Source: a virus. From it: 46,621 nt of DNA. The stretch covers positions 1 through 46,621 of the IMG/VR virus record IMGVR_UViG_3300044713_000028; one strand, 5' to 3'. The stretch's first letter is position 1; each line of letters opens with the position of its first letter. The notes beneath the pieces were generated by a model, which saw only the letters and a program-made list of their open reading frames with translations, had not been told where the DNA came from and did no database searches. Positions 9,504 through 19,746 of the stretch are shown here, in pieces. A program made the position numbers and the translations under genes.

Positions 9504-9709
9504 TGAAGCTACGTTGGTGGAAAACGGCGGATGAATGGCGCACGGAGATCGTGCGGCGCGCGTACAATCACGCCACGGAGATCAAGGTGCTTCAGGATCG
9601 CATCGCTGGGCTGGAGGCGAGTCTGGCGATAGCCAAGGACGATCTGCGTCGGGCCAACCAGCAGCGCGAAGAGTGGCGGCGCAAGGCGCTGGGAGTGGGC
9701 CAGCGATGA
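9503..9709 (+). CDS. Small coiled-coil protein (68 aa)
   Basis: ATG at 9503. Residues about 20-60 form one long charged helix with heptad spacing (LQDRIAGLEASLAIAKDDLR). It may oligomerise or bind a partner. ATGA-coupled to the next transferase. Confidence 0.5.
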   Translation: MKLRWWKTADEWRTEIVRRAYNHATEIKVLQDRIAGLEASLAIAKDDLRRANQQREEWRRKALGVGQR

Positions 9710-10557
9710 AACTGATCGGACTGATGCCGGCGCGTTCAGAGGGCTGGATTATTGGCCTGTCTGCGCGCGTGGCGCTGATGTGGTGCGATTCGCTCATCCT
9801 GCTCGACCATGCCAGCACCGACGCAACTTTGCTGAGGATGGCAGACATAGCACTCCAGCACCCCGGCCGAGTCACGATCCTTAAGGAGTACGGCAAGTGG
9901 GACGAGATGGCGCACCGGCAGCGCATGCTGGAAACTGCGCGCGACTTCGATCATCAAGCAACTCACATTGCCATGATCGACGCCGACGAGGTGTTGACCG
10001 CCGACTCGATGCCGATAATCCGCAAGGATATCGAGATGCTGCAGCCGGGTGTCATGCTCTATGCCAGCATGTTCAACATGCGCGGTACGCACCTGACTTA
10101 CCACACTAACGGCGTTTGGGGTAACCGGCAACTGTCCATAGCGTTCAAGGATACGCCGGCCGCGCACTGGCAGGGCGACACCTTCCACCACCGCGAGCCG
10201 CATGGAGTTTACTGGCGGCACATCCAATCACCGGCCAAGGTGATGCACCTCTGGGGTGTGACCGAGCGGCGCCTGATCGCACGGCACGCGCTTTACAAAG
10301 TCACCGAAGCGCAGCGCTGGCCTAACAAGCCGCGCGCGTCGATTGACGCGCAGTACAATCTGGCCATCAAGCCGCGCGCCACCGACCCGGAATGGACCTT
10401 TGCTACCGCTCCGGATAAGTGGTGGTGCGCGTATTCTCGGCTGACCCGGCACATGGATCTGGATCGCGTTCCCTGGCAGGAAGCGGAAGTGAGGCGCATG
10501 CTGGCCGCTGATCCATCGCTTGCTGATGGGCTTGACCTGTTCGGAGTGGAGAAATGA
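9706..10557 (+). CDS. Glycosyltransferase family 2-like protein no. 4
   Basis: 283 aa from the coupled ATG at 9706. Starts LIGLMPARSEGWIIGLS, then LILLDHASTDAT (31-41), the usual second GT2 strand, and the metal/nucleotide motif DADE at 92-95 (MIDADEVLTAD). This N-terminal layout is that of GT2 enzymes that read LDHxSxDxT. Ends with a helical C-terminus. It is the last transferase before the portal region. Confidence 0.75.
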   Translation: MKLIGLMPARSEGWIIGLSARVALMWCDSLILLDHASTDATLLRMADIALQHPGRVTILKEYGKWDEMAHRQRMLETARDFDHQATHIAMIDADEVLTADSMPIIRKDIEMLQPGVMLYASMFNMRGTHLTYHTNGVWGNRQLSIAFKDTPAAHWQGDTFHHREPHGVYWRHIQSPAKVMHLWGVTERRLIARHALYKVTEAQRWPNKPRASIDAQYNLAIKPRATDPEWTFATAPDKWWCAYSRLTRHMDLDRVPWQEAEVRRMLAADPSLADGLDLFGVEK

Positions 10558-10763: not shown

Positions 10764-11008
10764 AGTCTACCGGGGCCAGTCTTGTAAAGTTCGCGTACTA
10801 CGACGGAGCCAAAGAGGAAATAGTGGAATTCTGCGTATCTTCTGAATATCTGTGGAGCGCGGAGGGTTTGGCGCAACTGTATGAGGCCTGCAGAGATAGC
10901 TACCTAGGAGCAGACGTGGATATGCGGGCGTCGTGGCACCTCGCGGGAGTGGCAAACTTTGATGGCTTTGTGATAGAAGCCGACGAGGTGATAGACTCTA
11001 AGCCATGA
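10760..11008 (+). CDS. Hypothetical acidic protein (82 aa)
   Basis: GTG at 10760 overlaps the upstream TGA. Acidic, with no recognised motif. Its stop overlaps the portal ATG. Confidence 0.5.
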   Translation: MKSTGASLVKFAYYDGAKEEIVEFCVSSEYLWSAEGLAQLYEACRDSYLGADVDMRASWHLAGVANFDGFVIEADEVIDSKP

Positions 11009-12945
11009 ACCGCATTCGCGCGTGGCTCTCAAAACGGCTTGGCATTGATGATCTTCAGCGATCCGCCCAGCAGCAATTCCTAGATTTACAGCGCCGCAAT
11101 GAAATTCTGCAAGATGAAAACCGCGCGCTACTCCTGCGTGACCGCGAAGACGAAGGCAGGCAGCGGGCAATGGAAGAGCGCGCGGAATACGCCGAGGCGC
11201 TGTCAATGTACGGCGCTGGCCCTTGGCAGCCTACCGGCGTGGCAGTGAACGAGGCCGGAAAGATCGAGGGCGGCGGGGTTGCACTGAAGGAGAGGTACTG
11301 GGAACTTGAATTGGCGCTTGAAGATCGCGGCTGGCAGCGTCAACTGGCGATGGCTCAAACCGAGTTCAGCCGCTATGGAATCCAACAGATTATCCTGATT
11401 TCCCGACTGTATTTCATCAAAAACCCGCTGGTTCGCCGCGGCGTGGAGTTGTGCGCTGATTACGTGTTTGGCCGCGGAATGCAGATCACTTCTGACGACG
11501 AAGACGCAAATACCTGCATTGAACAGTTCATGGAGGCGAATCAAAAACAGTTGGGCGTCACCGCGCTTCTGCAAAAGGAGCGCACTTTGAAAACAGACGG
11601 GAACCTATTCTGGGCACTGTTCACGGATCAAGCTACAGGCATGGTGATGGTGCAGACCATCGACGCCGCCGAGGTCGAGGACGTTATCACCGACCCAGAC
11701 AACTCCGATGTGGAGTGGTTCGTCAAGCGGCGCTGGATTCAGGCTGTGTTTGATCCTGAAACGGGAGCCACGCAGCAAATCTCCAAGGTGTGCTGGTACG
11801 TGGCGCTGGGATATGAGACGAACGCGACGGCATTCGGCCCGCAGCAGGAGCCGGTTATGCGCGTGGCTGGTGAGCCGGTGTACGTGTACCACCGCAAGGT
11901 GGGCGGCATCGAAAAGTGGCGCTTTGGCTGCCCTGAAGTCTACCCGATGATCGATTGGGTGCGCGCCTACAAGCACTACCTTGAGGACTGGTGCACGATC
12001 CAGCGGGCATTCGCGCGCTTCTCGTGGGATGTGAAGACCAAAGGGGGCGCCGGCGCGATAGCGAACCTCAAGAATGCGCTGGCGACTACTCTGGCAAACG
12101 GCGGTACGTGGTGGGAACAGAACCCGGCACCAAATACCGGTTCTCCGTGGATTAGCGGCCCGGGAACGACGCTGCAGCCGTTCAAGACACCGCAGAACAA
12201 CCCGGAGGCTTCCCGGCGCGTGGCAATGATGGCGTGTTCGGCAATCGGGCTACCCGAAACGATGCTCTTGGGCGATGCCACCACGGGCAGTCTGGCGACC
12301 GCGGTATCACTCGACCGGCCCACGGAATTGAAATTCACACAGCGGCAGGAACTCTGGCGGCAGGATCTAAAGGTGATCGTGGGATATGCGCTTGAACGTT
12401 CGCTGATGGCTCCTAAGGGCAAACTGCGAGAAGCGCTAAAAGCAAAGGGGAAATCGCCCGACACAAAGACTGCGGCGGATGGTGCGCAGGCCGTGCGCGT
12501 TACCTTCCCTGCCGTCCTGGAGCACGATGTGACCGCGCGCGTGGCGGCCATCGCGGAAGCGCTAACCCTCAACGGATTCGAGGCTACCGGCATTGACCAG
12601 CGCGTCGGTATCAAGCTGCTGTTGGAAGAACTCGGTGTGGACGATGCACAGAGCGTCATCGAGGCCATGTTCCCCGAAGATCAGTACGATGAACTGGTGG
12701 ACCGTACACCGCTGTTGAAGGCCGAGAATGAGCAGGCCATCGAACAGGCCAAGAATCCGCCGCAGCCGGGCATGGAAGGACCGACCGGCGCACCGTCGCA
12801 AGGGCCAATGCCCCGCAAGCCGCACGCGCAGAAGCTAAACGCGCAGCCGCCCAGCCCGTCGAAGGCCAGCGAGGCGGCGATAAACCGGGCGGTCGTGGCG
12901 CTAAAGAAAGCGCTGGAATCGCGGAGGGTTAATGGGCACGCCTGA
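11005..12945 (+). CDS. Portal protein
   Basis: 646 aa, ATG coupled. N-terminal charged helices (about 10-70), then the portal core: FSRYGIQQIILISRLYFIKNP, a GRGMQI motif, and a clip/stem region around YKHYLEDWCTIQRAFARFSW. The C-terminal ~50 residues are Pro/Gln/Lys-rich. Forms the dodecameric ring at the capsid vertex through which DNA passes. Position upstream of the head morphogenesis gene agrees. Confidence 0.85.
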   Translation: MNRIRAWLSKRLGIDDLQRSAQQQFLDLQRRNEILQDENRALLLRDREDEGRQRAMEERAEYAEALSMYGAGPWQPTGVAVNEAGKIEGGGVALKERYWELELALEDRGWQRQLAMAQTEFSRYGIQQIILISRLYFIKNPLVRRGVELCADYVFGRGMQITSDDEDANTCIEQFMEANQKQLGVTALLQKERTLKTDGNLFWALFTDQATGMVMVQTIDAAEVEDVITDPDNSDVEWFVKRRWIQAVFDPETGATQQISKVCWYVALGYETNATAFGPQQEPVMRVAGEPVYVYHRKVGGIEKWRFGCPEVYPMIDWVRAYKHYLEDWCTIQRAFARFSWDVKTKGGAGAIANLKNALATTLANGGTWWEQNPAPNTGSPWISGPGTTLQPFKTPQNNPEASRRVAMMACSAIGLPETMLLGDATTGSLATAVSLDRPTELKFTQRQELWRQDLKVIVGYALERSLMAPKGKLREALKAKGKSPDTKTAADGAQAVRVTFPAVLEHDVTARVAAIAEALTLNGFEATGIDQRVGIKLLLEELGVDDAQSVIEAMFPEDQYDELVDRTPLLKAENEQAIEQAKNPPQPGMEGPTGAPSQGPMPRKPHAQKLNAQPPSPSKASEAAINRAVVALKKALESRRVNGHA

Positions 12946-13411
12946 GGCTGCCAATCATGAGAAGTTTTTGGCGCACCTGTCCGCGAGCGGGGACGCATGC
13001 TGGCTTGTTTCTAAGTGGCTTCAATCTCGCGGCTACCCGGTACGGGTAAATCCAACGTTCTACTCGCCTGAACCAAAGGCGTGGAAAGAATACGCGGACG
13101 GTGGAGATATCGAGATAGGGCTACGCATCGAGGTAAAGGGACTGTCCGCGGCATTCACTTCTGATACGGATTGGCCCTTCCCCAATTTCATCGTGTGCGC
13201 AAAGCATTCATTTGATCGATCACGTCCAAGGCCATATGCATACATCGCGGTTAACGAGGCGCGGACCCATATCGCAATGGTCAAAAGCGCATCTCGTCCG
13301 AAGTGGACGGTAGAGAGGAAGTCGGACGGCCGCTATCAGGGGGTGCAGCAAGAGTTTTATGTGACCACGCTTAATAACGTATCGTTCCACGCACTCAGGG
13401 AAATAATGTGA
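12932..13411 (+). CDS. Possible PD-(D/E)XK-type nuclease (159 aa)
   Basis: GDIEIGLRIEVKG at 58-70 places Asp59, Glu67 and Lys69 in the order and spacing of a PD-(D/E)XK active site. Otherwise unrecognised. It overlaps the 3' end of the portal gene by 14 nt and the next gene by 4 nt. Inserted between portal and minor head protein, where free-standing nucleases often sit. Confidence 0.5.
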   Translation: MGTPEAANHEKFLAHLSASGDACWLVSKWLQSRGYPVRVNPTFYSPEPKAWKEYADGGDIEIGLRIEVKGLSAAFTSDTDWPFPNFIVCAKHSFDRSRPRPYAYIAVNEARTHIAMVKSASRPKWTVERKSDGRYQGVQQEFYVTTLNNVSFHALREIM

Positions 13412-14661
13412 AGATCTACCTCGTGCGCCACGCTGAATCCGAAGACGGCCCGCGCGAAGATCCAACCCGCGCGCTAACCGAAACCGGACACGCGCAGGCC
13501 AAGGTAATCGCCGGATTCCTGCACCGCGAATTGGGACGCGCCAACGTGGTGCTGTGTTCATACTTCAAGCGTGCGGTGGATACGGCCAAGCCGATCGCTG
13601 AAGCGCTGGGCGCGCCCATCGTGAACCTGTGGCAATTGCACCCCGATGGCGATCCCACAGAATCGCTGGACGCGATCAAACGACACGGCCAAGGGGATAC
13701 AGTGGTCGTCACGCACCACCCGCTGACGAACGCGCTTATCGAGCGGCTGACCGGCGCAAAGACGGATGACGTGTCATTCCACCACGGGCACGTAGCGCAC
13801 TGCCACGGCGGCAAGTTGCATTGGCTCGTCAGTCCGCACCTGGTGGAACGCGATGAAGCCGTGACCGAGGCGGCAATCGCCGTGGCCGATTCGCTGTTGG
13901 AGGCGATGCCGACTCCAGCGCATGACCGGCGCAACGCCGCGCTGGAAAAGCCGATCGCCAACGCTGAGCGTGCGGTGCGCAAGCACTTCAAACGGCAAGA
14001 GCGGGCGTTTATGCCAATGAAGCCTCCAGTAGCCGGATTCCGAGAGGCAGATGCCGACGCCGAAGGTATCGAGGCGTCCCTTCGCGCTACGTTGGCGTCC
14101 CTCCCTGTAGATGAGCTAATCGCTGATCTGTTTGATGACGCTCTATCCGCCGCGCTGACAGCAGCCGCCACGCACACCGCGTCCGACTTCGCCTACTCCG
14201 ATGACGGCGCCTACGCCAGTTTCGAGGCGCGCTACCTGGCAAACCAGGGCTTTGCCAAGATTGCCGGCGGCATCGACAATACCACCATCCGGCAGGTAGC
14301 TCTGTCCGTAGCGAGGGCCTATCAGGACGGCGCCGACTATCAGGGAATCGTGGCGGCCATCAAGCACAGGTTCGCCGACTTCAACGATTACCGGGTGAAC
14401 CTGATCGCGCAGACCGAACTGAACAATGCCTACAACGCCGGGATCGTTGAACTCGGCATGCAGGCAGGCGCGGATGAGAAGTCTTGGCACACGCAATCGG
14501 ATAAGCCGTGCCCGTCGTGTGTGGCGAATGAAGCCGCGGGGCGCATCCCGATCAGAGCGGCATTCCCCAGCGGCGCGCAATCTCCATGCGGGCACCCAGG
14601 CTGCTATTGTAGTCTGGAAGTACACGCCAGCGGGCGCGATGTGGAGGAGGATGCAGCATGA
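13408..14661 (+). CDS. SixA-like histidine phosphatase fused to phage head morphogenesis protein
   Basis: 417 aa, GTG start. Residues 1-145 match the SixA phosphohistidine phosphatase layout: LVRHAE at 5-10 (Arg7, His8), LTETG at 23-27, SYFKRAVDTA at 51-60 (Arg55), VVVTHHPL at 99-106 (second His) and a closing strand LHWLVSP. After a linker (about 160-220) residues 220-417 resemble Mu gpF/SPP1 gp7 minor head proteins: NLIAQTELNNAYNAG at 331-345 and a Cys cluster CPSC (368-371) and CGHPGCYC (394-401). The reading frame is continuous, so this is a real fusion. The phosphatase substrate is unknown. All catalytic residues are present. Confidence 0.8.
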   Translation: MKIYLVRHAESEDGPREDPTRALTETGHAQAKVIAGFLHRELGRANVVLCSYFKRAVDTAKPIAEALGAPIVNLWQLHPDGDPTESLDAIKRHGQGDTVVVTHHPLTNALIERLTGAKTDDVSFHHGHVAHCHGGKLHWLVSPHLVERDEAVTEAAIAVADSLLEAMPTPAHDRRNAALEKPIANAERAVRKHFKRQERAFMPMKPPVAGFREADADAEGIEASLRATLASLPVDELIADLFDDALSAALTAAATHTASDFAYSDDGAYASFEARYLANQGFAKIAGGIDNTTIRQVALSVARAYQDGADYQGIVAAIKHRFADFNDYRVNLIAQTELNNAYNAGIVELGMQAGADEKSWHTQSDKPCPSCVANEAAGRIPIRAAFPSGAQSPCGHPGCYCSLEVHASGRDVEEDAA

Positions 14662-14894
14662 TTTACGCAGATTCCCAAAGAGCGGCACGCTTTCCATGTA
14701 CCACAGTTGGCGAAGTCCGAGGATTCAGCGCGCAGAAGCGCATGGGGCAGCCCAAGACCATAGAGGAAATGATCTCTGAGCTAGATCGGGCGGGATGGCG
14801 AAAAGTGATGGCTGCGGTTTGGATATCTCCTAACGGCAATTTGTTTCGCGGTCCGTTCGGCGCATGGAAGGCAATGATGGCGGGAGCTAAGTGA
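14658..14894 (+). CDS. Hypothetical protein (78 aa)
   Basis: ATG overlaps the fusion stop. The centre has a WRKVMAAVWISPNGNLFRGPFGAW segment, a small alpha/beta unit. Function unknown; stop overlaps the next GTG. Confidence 0.5.
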   Translation: MIYADSQRAARFPCTTVGEVRGFSAQKRMGQPKTIEEMISELDRAGWRKVMAAVWISPNGNLFRGPFGAWKAMMAGAK

Positions 14895-15301
14895 ATTTCA
14901 AAGCCACAGCATCAGCGATGCCGGTCAACACGGCAGCCGTCATGGGCAAGATTCGCGCGGCGGTTCAGTTGTCGGTAGAACAGGCTTGCGAAATCATAAC
15001 CGAGGAAGCGCAGGCGATCGTACCTGTCAAGACCGGCGCACTCCGCGAAAGCATCGGCTGGACGACCGACGAACAGTCTGGCATGATCGTAGGCACCGTG
15101 AGCGCAAAGGTGCCATACGCTGGCTATATCGAATTTGGGACCGGGAGGCGCGGCGCCGCAAGCCCAGGCGCCGGTCCGTACCCGTACACGATGACCTGGC
15201 CGGGGATGGTGGCGCAGCCGTTTATGCGGCCAAGCGTAGATACTGCGCGGGAGTCCGTAAAGCAGGTATTCATAGATAACGTGGCATTGGCCCTGAAATA
15301 G
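14891..15301 (+). CDS. HK97 gp10-like tail-connector protein
   Basis: 136 aa, GTG start coupled. PVKTGALRESI (about 46-56) and PYAGYIEFGTGRR (about 77-89) are the two signatures of the HK97 gp10 family, which joins head and tail. Ends inside the last codons of the minus-strand HNH gene. Confidence 0.85.
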   Translation: MNFKATASAMPVNTAAVMGKIRAAVQLSVEQACEIITEEAQAIVPVKTGALRESIGWTTDEQSGMIVGTVSAKVPYAGYIEFGTGRRGAASPGAGPYPYTMTWPGMVAQPFMRPSVDTARESVKQVFIDNVALALK

Positions 15302-16113: not shown

Positions 16114-17781
16114 ATGCCTCTGTCGAAGGGCTTTGAAGTTCTCGCTCTCAAAATTCAGGAAGCCGCTATCGGAATGACGCACGGCAATGTGCGCAACGCG
16201 CTGGAAGGCGCGGTTATGGACGCACACGCCACGGGCCAATCCTACGGCCATTACGTGGATCATTCCGGCGACGGCGAATCGGGCGATTGCATCTATACCA
16301 CGAACGGCGAGTTGTGCAGCGCACCGTACACCATCGGCACCGTGGGCGGAAAGATGCACGCCAGTATTGACCACGAGAAGCGTGAGCCGGTGATGGCGAA
16401 CGTTACCTACCATCCGAAGGCGACCGACGACGACCACTACACCGCGATGGAATCGGCCGGCTTCTACGAAGCCGGCAGCGCGCGATACGCGGAGCGGTTC
16501 ATCAGCAAGGGCGAACGAGACAAGGCCGACGCTGGGGATTTCGCCGGAAAGGGCAAGAGCTTTCCAATCCTGAAGCCGGAAGATGTGGGTGCCGCAGTCC
16601 ATGCGATGGGGCGGGCCGGATCTGCCAACTACGGCATGAGCGGGCTAAAGAGCCGCATCATCGCCATTGCCAAGAAAAAGGGCTGGACGAGCCATCTCCC
16701 CAAGTCCTGGCAGGACGGCGAAGACAAAGAGTGCATGGACTCGGTACGCGAGACGGAGATCGTCGGCGATGCCATACCCCTTAAGGAGGGCGCCGTTGGC
16801 CAGGACGGCACCGCTTACCTGAAATTAATTTCTCCTGGCCGGGGATCGTCCGGTTATTACCCAGCAGACGTGTTGGAGAGGGACGGCCCCAGAGTTTTCA
16901 AAAAGGGCACCAAGAATTTCTGGAACCATCAGACCGACGCCGAGGAAGCCGCGCGGCCGGAAGGCGATTTGCGCGACTTGGCGAGCGTGTTGACCGAAGA
17001 TGCCCACTACGAGCATGCCGGTCCAGCAGGGCCTGGGCTGTATGCTAAGGCCGAGGTGCAACCGCACTACCGGGGCCCGGTGGACAGCCTGGCGAAGCAC
17101 ATCGGCATGTCGATCAGGGCAACCGGAAAAGCCAAGGAAGGCAAAGCTCCGGATGGCAAGACCGGACCCATCATCGAGCAGCTAACCCGTGGTATCAGCG
17201 TGGATTACGTGACCACGCCGGGTGCGGGCGGACAGATTTTGCAGTTATTCGAGGCGGCGCGAGGAAGCCGTCAAATCCAAGTACAGGAGAGCCAAGATAT
17301 GGCGGATGACGCCAGATTGCAAGAAGCGCTCGCCCAGATCAGGAAACTGAATGGGCGGCTCGCGCTGACCGAGGCGGCCGGCGTCATTTCCGGCTATTTC
17401 CAAACCGTTCGCGTGGGCGAAGCCATCCGGCAGCGCGTCACGCAGAATCTGCTTTCGGGCACGATGCCGCTTACCGCATCCGGGGAACTGGACAGCGAGA
17501 AACTCGGGAAGATGGCCGAGGCGGCGACGAAGGAAGAGTGCGATTACGTATCGCGGCTTTCCGGTGGCGCTATCGTCTTCGGCATGGGTGCGCCAGTCAC
17601 CACCATGACCGAGGCGGATCGCAAAGCGCTGGCCGACGCCGAAGCCAGAGAGTTCACCAGCACGATGGGCGAACTAGCCGGTTTCGTGATGGGCGAAGCG
17701 AGCGACGGAGCCGACAAGCAGGAGCGCAAGAAGTTCAAGCGCTTGCACGACGCATTCATTAACCGAGGGGAGGCCGCCTAA
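16114..17781 (+). CDS. Capsid maturation protease/scaffold with extra N-terminal domains
   Basis: 555 aa. The middle (about 225-375) fits the HK97-type prohead protease: FWNHQT with His272, SIRATG with Ser333, and GISVDY near 360-365. The C-terminus (about 395-555) is coiled coil then helical, as expected of a fused scaffold. Before the protease, residues about 131-195 (GERDKADAGDFAGKGKSF...IIAIAKKKGW) match a DUF6582-like segment, and residues 20-110 are a separate His-rich unit. No Shine-Dalgarno precedes 16114; the ATG at 16174 is an alternative. It would process capsid protein during prohead maturation. Confidence 0.75.
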   Translation: MPLSKGFEVLALKIQEAAIGMTHGNVRNALEGAVMDAHATGQSYGHYVDHSGDGESGDCIYTTNGELCSAPYTIGTVGGKMHASIDHEKREPVMANVTYHPKATDDDHYTAMESAGFYEAGSARYAERFISKGERDKADAGDFAGKGKSFPILKPEDVGAAVHAMGRAGSANYGMSGLKSRIIAIAKKKGWTSHLPKSWQDGEDKECMDSVRETEIVGDAIPLKEGAVGQDGTAYLKLISPGRGSSGYYPADVLERDGPRVFKKGTKNFWNHQTDAEEAARPEGDLRDLASVLTEDAHYEHAGPAGPGLYAKAEVQPHYRGPVDSLAKHIGMSIRATGKAKEGKAPDGKTGPIIEQLTRGISVDYVTTPGAGGQILQLFEAARGSRQIQVQESQDMADDARLQEALAQIRKLNGRLALTEAAGVISGYFQTVRVGEAIRQRVTQNLLSGTMPLTASGELDSEKLGKMAEAATKEECDYVSRLSGGAIVFGMGAPVTTMTEADRKALADAEAREFTSTMGELAGFVMGEASDGADKQERKKFKRLHDAFINRGEAA

Positions 17782-18279
17782 ATGTTCAGGAATCCTCTGC
17801 AAGAGGGCCGCTGCGAAGCGCCCAACCAGGTATTGGAGCAAGGCGGTGCGCAGCCCCTACAGGTTGCTGTTAATCCGTCCATAACTATCCAGAGCGGGCA
17901 GCCGCTGCTGATCGGTCAGTTGGCGGCGGTGGCGATGACCAGCAATCCGCCGCTGTTGCAGCCGGGCACGTTGGCCCCGTTGCAGTTGCCCAGCACGGGC
18001 AATATCGCAGTGCTGCTGGCTGGAGTTTTCAATCTCACCGTGACGGCGAAATCTTCACTCAGCCCGAGCACGGGCAGCGCGGTGAACCCCGGCGACAAGA
18101 TCTACGCGGACGGCGGAACGCTGGACACAAACAGCAACGTGACGCTCGGTTTCACGCTGGACAAGAACACCTCGGGCGTGCTGTTCGGCTCCGCAGTAAG
18201 CGTGGGTGGCGCGGGTGGACCGCTGTTAGTTTCGGCGACGACCGGCATTATCGCGGTCAGACTCAAGGAGGGTGCATAA
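17782..18279 (+). CDS. Head decoration protein (DUF2190-like)
   Basis: 165 aa, ATG directly after the upstream stop. Repeated short beta strands and Gly-rich turns (IQSGQPLLIGQLAAVAMT, then TGIIAVRLKEGA at the end) are typical of the DUF2190 capsid-stabilising family. Sits between protease and major capsid protein, as in many siphoviruses. Confidence 0.75.
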   Translation: MFRNPLQEGRCEAPNQVLEQGGAQPLQVAVNPSITIQSGQPLLIGQLAAVAMTSNPPLLQPGTLAPLQLPSTGNIAVLLAGVFNLTVTAKSSLSPSTGSAVNPGDKIYADGGTLDTNSNVTLGFTLDKNTSGVLFGSAVSVGGAGGPLLVSATTGIIAVRLKEGA

Positions 18280-19746
18280 GTGGTTTCGTTCAATGAGGTA
18301 GTCAAAAACTACGGCGACTTCGCGAGTGCATCGCGTTTCGCAAGCCTCCCTCCGGGAATCACGATCAACAATCCCGGCGTATCCGGCGCGGCCGACGCGC
18401 GCGACATCCGCGAAGGGCTGTATACCCCTTGGCGCGGCTCGCAGACCGACAAAGAGCCGGGCATGGTTCCGGTGCGCGTTCCCGGCCAAGGCGACCCGCG
18501 GCGCGCGCTTTATGAGCGCAAACTGTTCGAGGCCAGCAAGGTCCTGAACCAGGCGCTTCGCGGCAACAAGTGGGCAATTCTGTCCATCAACGAAGCGATG
18601 AACGGGCGCCCCTTGCGAGTGACTGAGGCGCTGTCCATCTCGGATTTCCCCAACATCTTTGGCGATATCATCGACCGTGCCGTCATCGCCAATTATCGCG
18701 AGACGCCGTACACCTGGAACATGATTGCCACGCACGCCGACGTGGCCGACTTCCGCCAGGTCAAGCGCTTCAGGATTGACTACGGCACGGCGCCGAACAA
18801 CACGCCGATCGACCAGGGCGCACCGTACCCCGAAGACAAGATCTCGGATGCGGCGCAGCAGGCGGGCACGTATGTCCCTCCGGGCGCAGCCGCCGGTGTC
18901 GGGTACTACGCCTACAATCTCCAGAAGTACGGCAAGCGCATGCCGTTCTACTGGGAGACGTTCATCAACGATGATCTCAACGCCATCAAGGACGTTCCAG
19001 CGCGCTTCGGGCGCGGCATGCGCCGCGGCGAGGAGTACTTCGTCACGAATCTTTTCGCGAACAACACCAATTTCTTCAATACCGCGAACTTCAAGAACGT
19101 GGTGAGCTCGGCAAACACGCCGGGCAATGTGTACACCGCGAACAACCCGCCGCTGTCGATCACCGCACTCGCACAGGCGATGGTGGTTATGTCCCTCCAG
19201 CGCGATCTGGATGGCCAGCCGATCGACATTGAGGCTGTGACCTTGGTGGTCCCTCCGGCGTTGAAGGTGACGGCCCAGAACATTCTGAACGCCGATTACT
19301 TCTGGGCCAACGATCAGGGCGGTACGGTCATCGACCCGAGCAGCGGCGGAAACGTTTCGGCGCAGCGCTTGAATGTGGCCAACTGGGCGCGGAACATCGT
19401 GAAACTCGCCGTCAATTACTACCTGCCGATCGTGGACAGCACCTACGGCAACCAGGGCTGGTACCTGTTCAGCGATCCGAACAGCGGGCGCCCGGCGCTG
19501 GAATTCGCGCATCTTCGCGGGCGCCGCATGCCGGAACTGTTCATGAAATTACCGAACTCGGTAGCCATCGGCGAGGGCCAGATGGGACCCGGCGCAGGGC
19601 CGATGATCGGCACCACCATGCAGAATCCGATGGAGGGCGATTTCGACACCGACGCCATCCATTACAAAATCCGCCATGTTTATGGCGGTGTGCAGATGGA
19701 CCCGCTAATGGCGGTCTACAGCAACGGAAGCGGGACTGGAACTTAG
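18280..19746 (+). CDS. Major capsid protein
   Basis: 488 aa, GTG start with a perfect AAGGAGG Shine-Dalgarno 7-8 nt upstream, the strongest in the window, as expected for the most abundant virion protein. Position after protease and decoration protein and before connectors supports the call. The sequence reads like HK97-fold capsid proteins: an N-arm, a long helix near 90-130, and P-domain strands ending in GGVQMDPLMAVYS. A hairpin at 19770 follows. Confidence 0.85.
   Translation: MVSFNEVVKNYGDFASASRFASLPPGITINNPGVSGAADARDIREGLYTPWRGSQTDKEPGMVPVRVPGQGDPRRALYERKLFEASKVLNQALRGNKWAILSINEAMNGRPLRVTEALSISDFPNIFGDIIDRAVIANYRETPYTWNMIATHADVADFRQVKRFRIDYGTAPNNTPIDQGAPYPEDKISDAAQQAGTYVPPGAAAGVGYYAYNLQKYGKRMPFYWETFINDDLNAIKDVPARFGRGMRRGEEYFVTNLFANNTNFFNTANFKNVVSSANTPGNVYTANNPPLSITALAQAMVVMSLQRDLDGQPIDIEAVTLVVPPALKVTAQNILNADYFWANDQGGTVIDPSSGGNVSAQRLNVANWARNIVKLAVNYYLPIVDSTYGNQGWYLFSDPNSGRPALEFAHLRGRRMPELFMKLPNSVAIGEGQMGPGAGPMIGTTMQNPMEGDFDTDAIHYKIRHVYGGVQMDPLMAVYSNGSGTGT

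Follow-up and report, generated by a model that had tools for sequence, protein, structure and literature searches.

The window is a stretch of 46,621 nucleotides of viral DNA (IMG/VR record IMGVR_UViG_3300044713_000028). Its head genes are arranged in the order terminase (3040), glycosyltransferase-like gene (9535), portal (11005), a small open reading frame (12932) and a fusion gene, followed by a gp10-like neck protein, the maturation protease (16114), a decoration protein (17782) and the major capsid protein (18280). The features discussed below are as follows.

11005 to 12945, plus strand: portal protein (phrog_10963, E 3e-68)
12932 to 13411, plus strand: ORF of 159 amino acids between portal and fusion, without a Pfam or PHROG match
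13408 to 14661, plus strand: fusion of a SixA-like phosphatase and a MuF-type minor head protein, 417 amino acids, GTG start
13408 to 13848, plus strand: SixA-type branch-1 histidine phosphatase domain, residues 1-147 (PF00300, TIGR00249, 1ujb)
13426 to 13431, plus strand: codons of catalytic R7 and H8 (RHG/RHA motif)
13570 to 13572, plus strand: codon of catalytic R55
13714 to 13716, plus strand: codon of catalytic H103
13858 to 13905, plus strand: amphipathic helix AVTEAAIAVADSLLEA, residues 151-166, candidate docking element (score matrix; helix at residues 143-166 in the structural model)
14275 to 14442, plus strand: MuF helical core, conserved part, residues 290-345
14461 to 14625, plus strand: MuF cysteine/histidine tail, CxxC ... 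HPxCxC, residues 352-406
14891 to 15301, plus strand: HK97 gp10-like/neck protein (PF04883, phrog_5)
16114 to 17781, plus strand: head maturation protease (phrog_15531, E 2.5e-26)
17782 to 18279, plus strand: head decoration protein (PF09956, phrog_122)
18280 to 19746, plus strand: major capsid protein (PF25209, E 1.4e-33)

The fusion is encoded by a single uninterrupted frame, the GTG start of which overlaps the stop of the preceding ORF. This small ORF, for which no homologue was found in related loci (denoted here by L numbers), overlaps both portal and fusion; L012 and L017 lack it, and there the portal and fusion genes themselves overlap. The glycosyltransferase-like gene (9535 to 10557; weak match to PF13704, DADE motif) lies directly upstream of the portal and is conserved in many relatives, whether or not these have the phosphatase.

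A preliminary description of the locus had proposed a complete set of SixA-like motifs ahead of a gpF/gp7-type head domain, and both halves were matched by domain searches. Residues 3-73 matched His_Phos_1 (PF00300, E 3.4e-13) at 50.2 bits, above the cut-off of 21.7. The sixA model TIGR00249 matched residues 2-143 (E 3.2e-15) with a score of 56.3 bits; as its equivalog cut-off is 74.5, the domain is named SixA-like and not SixA. Relatives scoring above this cut-off were L017 (81.4 bits), L018 (94.8), L019 (77.7), L020 (84.7) and L024 (84.5). Phage_Mu_F (PF04233) aligned to residues 296-403 (E 3e-5) at 25.2 bits, slightly under its cut-off of 29.6, which was exceeded by the close fusions L012 (42.8 bits) and L017 (40.6 bits). 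PHROGs head-and-packaging families covered residues 166-409 (E 1.4e-24) and 283-390 (E 5.7e-12).

An AlphaFold2 model built from a 74-row alignment predicted the phosphatase fold with confidence (mean pLDDT 92-98 for residues 1-110) and the MuF core and tail with fair confidence (mostly pLDDT 76-93 for residues 290-410); the helical middle was poorly placed. The best match among solved structures was E. coli SixA (1ujb; Z 21.0, rmsd 1.9 Å over 144 residues), which was also the top match by structure in Foldseek and by sequence in phmmer; the phosphatase fold supposed in the preliminary description is thus borne out by prediction. The PF00300 score, the catalytic residues R7, H8, R55 and H103 and the predicted RHG alpha/beta fold place the domain among the branch-1 histidine phosphatases. 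With E. coli SixA it shares the minimal RHG fold lacking the large inserts of other superfamily members, the catalytic R7, H8, R55 and second histidine, and a closing WxxxP strand before the C-terminus of the domain. It differs in being only 25% identical, in falling below the equivalog cut-off and in the addition of a C-terminal helix and MuF domain. The 417-residue frame joins a SixA-type branch-1 histidine phosphatase, on its C-terminal side, to a MuF/gp7-type minor head protein.

A frame error, sequencing artefact or chimaera was ruled out by a second contig and by several divergent fusions. The identical frame is present in IMG/VR contig 3300045012_000011, which differs from the window at one of 12,252 aligned bases, confirming the single reading frame described previously. 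A search for the same fusion in other phages, as had been recommended, recovered it from divergent uncultured phages: the order phosphatase, then MuF, was found in L012-L015 (64% identity) and L017 (51%), and also in L016, L114, L115 and L226, with identities of 26-27% for L016 and L115. None of the cultured-phage records searched covered both halves of the fusion. In a library of viral protein structures each match extended over one half only, MuF or phosphatase, and among those listed none was named for both. In a search of sequenced-genome contigs for prophages, the matches listed were only cellular SixA-type genes of 26-42% identity, with no phage-like copy among them. H79, from the search of cultured-phage records, is an unannotated 3.66-kb Salmonella sequence that looks like a fragment of chromosomal SixA.

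The fusion gene lies beside the portal in the head cassette, as expected of a MuF protein, in the same slot that holds the annotated minor head proteins of TripleJ and LuckyBarnes. In the window, and in most loci for which both flanking genes were detected, the phosphatase gene sits between the portal and the maturation protease; one exception is L203, whose copy lies approximately 4 kb downstream of the portal gene. Among cultured phages with related portals (Methanoculleus phage Blf4, Arthrobacter phage TripleJ, Brevibacterium phage LuckyBarnes and others) the slot is occupied by a MuF protein without a phosphatase. These MuF-only proteins align from about residue 150 of the window protein, so that the phosphatase constitutes a clean N-terminal addition.

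Scanning IMG/VR with portal and phosphatase alignments yielded 24 distinct SixA-type domains in viral contigs, in four main architectures. The first, phosphatase followed by MuF core and tail, is that of the window, L012, L017, L016, L114, L115 and L226; L207 is similar with a reduced core. In the second, the MuF cysteine tail is nested within the phosphatase, before its last strand (L018, L019, L020/L107, L022, L108 and L113). A model of L018 gave high confidence for the phosphatase fold including this last strand and low confidence for the nested part. The third, phosphatase then tail without core, is represented by L100/L102, and the fourth, phosphatase alone, by L024, L096, L101, L106, L203, L221, L238, L246 and L248. 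Searches of whole records, including contigs of 41-45 kb, found no MuF core for the second and third types or for L024, L096, L101 and L106, while four control records were positive.

Relatives without a phosphatase have in this slot a MuF core plus tail, a short tail-only protein, or a MuF protein with other inserts. The tail-only proteins, of approximately 75-130 amino acids, have nothing but a helix joined to the MuF cysteine tail (YYY-[DE]..KRW...GNC..C...HPNC.C) and occur at L205 2971-3276, L208 7224-7517, L232 4592-4987, L237 6661-6972, L254 6994-7278 and L261 6950-7276. In many unrelated MuF proteins the cysteine tail is interrupted, at one common HPxC site, by an intein-like insert: L114 6001-8022 (the same gene as L204 7365-9386), L202 6954-8789, L209 7222-8799, L224 7892-9574, L228 4072-6099, L231 6506-7861 and L028 6709-8607. 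The assignment was made from a Pfam intein splicing domain (E 4e-7) in L202 and by eye in the others. A different insert is present in the N-terminal region of the MuF proteins at L212 2542-4092, L227 7559-8815 and L228 4072-6099 (...DGMTKNVELC..QL.QLA.....GLANLMKGQ...ITQGF), and those of L212 and L213 have an additional C-terminal domain.

In a phylogenetic tree, 17 phage domains formed one lineage (100/98) apart from 68 cellular SixA-type proteins, a sample retrieved by a pattern derived from the phage alignment. The distribution of the phosphatase is patchy: it was present in 21 of 62 portal-clade representatives, requiring at least 11 gains or losses on a portal tree that was quickly built and has several weak nodes. 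A single gain without subsequent loss, suggested by a small first set of portals, was overturned by the second scan. Such patchiness is as expected of cargo, and the fusion represents one of several arrangements in a variable cargo slot beside the portal, found across uncultured relatives.

One short element recurs within this slot. In the phosphatase proteins an amphipathic helix follows the last phosphatase strand. A score matrix trained solely on helices of phosphatase-negative slot proteins, chosen by eye, placed its top window in the post-strand region of 18 of 20 phosphatase proteins, against 2.0 expected, including AVTEAAIAVADSLLEA of the window; individually, only about half of the helices outscored composition shuffles. 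This evidence is suggestive of a helix common to slot proteins with and without the phosphatase. No other element was found to recur in proteins with MuF only, with the tail only, with the fusion and with a standalone phosphatase, and the helix is a candidate docking element for portal or procapsid. Because this short helix appears to be the only part common to slot proteins, the nested and stripped-down forms are informative on head targeting, and they bear on how proteins reach phage heads.

All four catalytic residues (R7, H8, R55 and H103) are retained in each of the 24 distinct phage domains and in 68 of 68 cellular homologues. Values of dN/dS (NG86) were about 0.19 for the window and L012, 0.12 for L019 and L022 and 0.07 for L107 and L108, and are approximate as dS exceeded 1, near saturation, for most pairs. 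Judged from these sequences, the phosphatase within the head-protein fusion is apparently a working enzyme. A further histidine, H126, is conserved in 21 of the 24 phage domains, and none of the cellular proteins sampled showed it at this column; it had appeared to be an invariant phage-specific residue in the first set (17 of 17), a status not upheld in the larger one.

Retention of the catalytic residues across deep divergence, together with low dN/dS, argues against the histidine-phosphatase fold serving the minor head protein structurally, for binding or as a spacer, with catalysis incidental. This explanation draws on two kinds of relative and is considered improbable for the window. L239 (7222-7878 on a 44-kb contig) combines a SixA-type domain clearly homologous to that of L248 (blastp 1.8e-17) with a MuF cysteine tail, and all four of its catalytic residues are replaced; it is a predicted pseudo-phosphatase, catalytically dead. 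L220 (7562-9268) and L234 (2434-4050) contain a PGAM-type His_Phos_1 domain inside a MuF protein (E 5.7e-14 and 8.2e-13). The RHG start of the profile is unaligned in both and the second histidine is seemingly a serine, as assessed by eye, so that the fold is apparently dead. These PGAM-type domains are a second recruitment of the histidine-phosphatase fold to the same head protein. The three loci indicate that the fold can persist without its catalytic residues, and given such dead relatives the fold may have a structural role in some lineages.

Fusion of enzymes to MuF domains is an established theme. MuF polymorphic toxins and polyvalent proteins include fusions to ART, RelA/SpoT, PBECR, 2H, PRTase and zeta-kinase domains, and resemble the window protein in joining an enzyme to MuF in the head cassette; many of the fused enzymes are predicted to be effectors delivered to the host by the virion (PMC5512222, PMC5576092, PMC11699363). 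The window differs in that its enzyme is a phosphatase, placed at the N-terminus or, in relatives, nested. From SPP1 gp7 and Mu gpF, with which it shares the place next to the portal, the helical core and the CxxC/HPxCxC tail, the window protein differs by its N-terminal enzyme, and some of its relatives are reduced to a phosphatase, or to phosphatase and tail, with an undetectable core. In SPP1 the portal directs a few copies of gp7 to the inside of the procapsid; assembly does not require the protein, which supports the initiation of infection (PMC6316719).

A polymorphic toxin proper, in which a growth-inhibiting effector directed against rival bacteria is accompanied by an immunity gene, would account for the presence in a phage head cassette of a MuF protein with an attached enzyme, of which EFV, Bxa and Apk2 are examples (PMC5576092, PMC11699363). 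Toxins of this kind are C-terminal, whereas the window enzyme occupies residues 1-147 and the protein ends with the tail. The flanking ORFs (12932-13411 and 14658-14894) lack homologues in relatives with the same fusion, so there is no conserved immunity gene, and this origin is regarded as highly improbable.

The computed results comprise the fold of the phosphatase and its intact catalytic residues, together with purifying selection, the place of the gene within the head cassette and recurrent gain or loss at the slot. The gain, loss and rearrangement of an enzyme at the same spot suggests that these related viruses carry it into infected cells. The explanation preferred here, held tentatively at a probability just short of even, is that the portal-associated minor head protein carries an active SixA-type phosphatase as cargo, which is packaged in the head, ejected, and hydrolyses phosphohistidine in the host. 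The fusion protein would be made beside the portal during late gene expression; its MuF part, perhaps by way of the short helix common to slot proteins, would take it into the procapsid, and it would be kept within the mature head. At infection the phosphatase would accompany or closely follow the DNA into the cell, where it would hydrolyse phosphohistidine of a host protein. By comparison with SPP1 gp7 and the MuF-enzyme fusions, it is plausible that the protein is packaged in virions and delivered to the host. The location of the enzyme tells against cargo, since the known MuF cargo enzymes are C-terminal and that of the window is N-terminal.

We infer action on phosphohistidine from the likeness to SixA. 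The histidine phosphatase superfamily includes small-molecule phosphatases, and this, with a score of 56.3 bits against a cut-off of 74.5, weakens the case for phosphohistidine as substrate. E. coli SixA dephosphorylates NPr of the nitrogen PTS (PMC6282199, PMC7948535) and Ndk (PMC12934123). By analogy, candidate targets in the host would be a PTS phosphocarrier (NPr/EIIA-Ntr) or nucleoside diphosphate kinase.

The main rival to packaged cargo is an active phosphatase that is not ejected and is used in the producing cell, late in infection or while heads are assembled, MuF serving only to place it at the portal. It would act on a phosphoprotein of host or phage origin or, by way of Ndk for instance, on the nucleotide pool; Ndk is regulated by SixA in E. 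coli (PMC12934123). The phosphatase is encoded in the late head cassette, as such an enzyme would be, and is unfused, with neither MuF core nor tail, in L024, L096, L101, L106, L221, L238, L246 and L248. A free late enzyme, however, needs neither fusion to nor nesting of a head-protein tail, yet both recur, and the standalone phosphatases too carry the helix of the slot. Action confined to the producing cell is accordingly thought rather unlikely, if a serious contender.

Extended to the whole group, the packaged-cargo explanation would make the MuF slot by the portal an interchangeable cargo bay in which the phosphatase has been swapped, nested, decayed and lost. Heads pre-loaded with a phosphohistidine phosphatase would inject it and reset host phosphohistidine signalling and metabolism (PTS-Ntr, Ndk, phosphorelays) early in infection. 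This wider proposal is possible, with a probability clearly below even.

Few virion-delivered enzymes that act on host signalling are known. If the cargo explanation is true, a head-linked SixA-type phosphatase represents a new class of candidate injected effector, and whether a phage strips phosphate from histidine of host proteins at entry becomes testable. The domain combination, unfamiliar to the author of the preliminary description, is indeed unusual: besides its absence from the cultured-phage records searched, the word phosphatase occurs nowhere in three surveys of MuF fusions, and SixA is likewise unmentioned. A literature search on histidine phosphatase, head morphogenesis and phage found nothing, a description in a subscription journal or preprint being possible. 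A SixA phosphatase as MuF-fused enzyme, its N-terminal position and its nesting were thus not found described in the literature searched. A SixA-type gene has been reported in uncultured soil viruses as an auxiliary gene (Trubl et al., cited in PMC12713726); it is classed there under central carbon metabolism, unvalidated, and the citing passage states no link to a head protein. The head-cassette context suggests a role other than carbon metabolism for sixA, at least in the present lineage.

Finally, the glycosyltransferase-like gene at 9535-10557 raised the prospect of a small-molecule phosphatase paired with it and acting on a sugar phosphate. Pairs of this kind involve RHG enzymes, glucosyl-3-phosphoglycerate phosphatase being one example, that are among the structural neighbours of the window domain. 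In the first portal set the glycosyltransferase-like gene was present only with the phosphatase. In the second portal set it was often found without the phosphatase, and the converse, which leaves the pairing with a minimal probability; the apparent functional link between the two genes was a clade effect.
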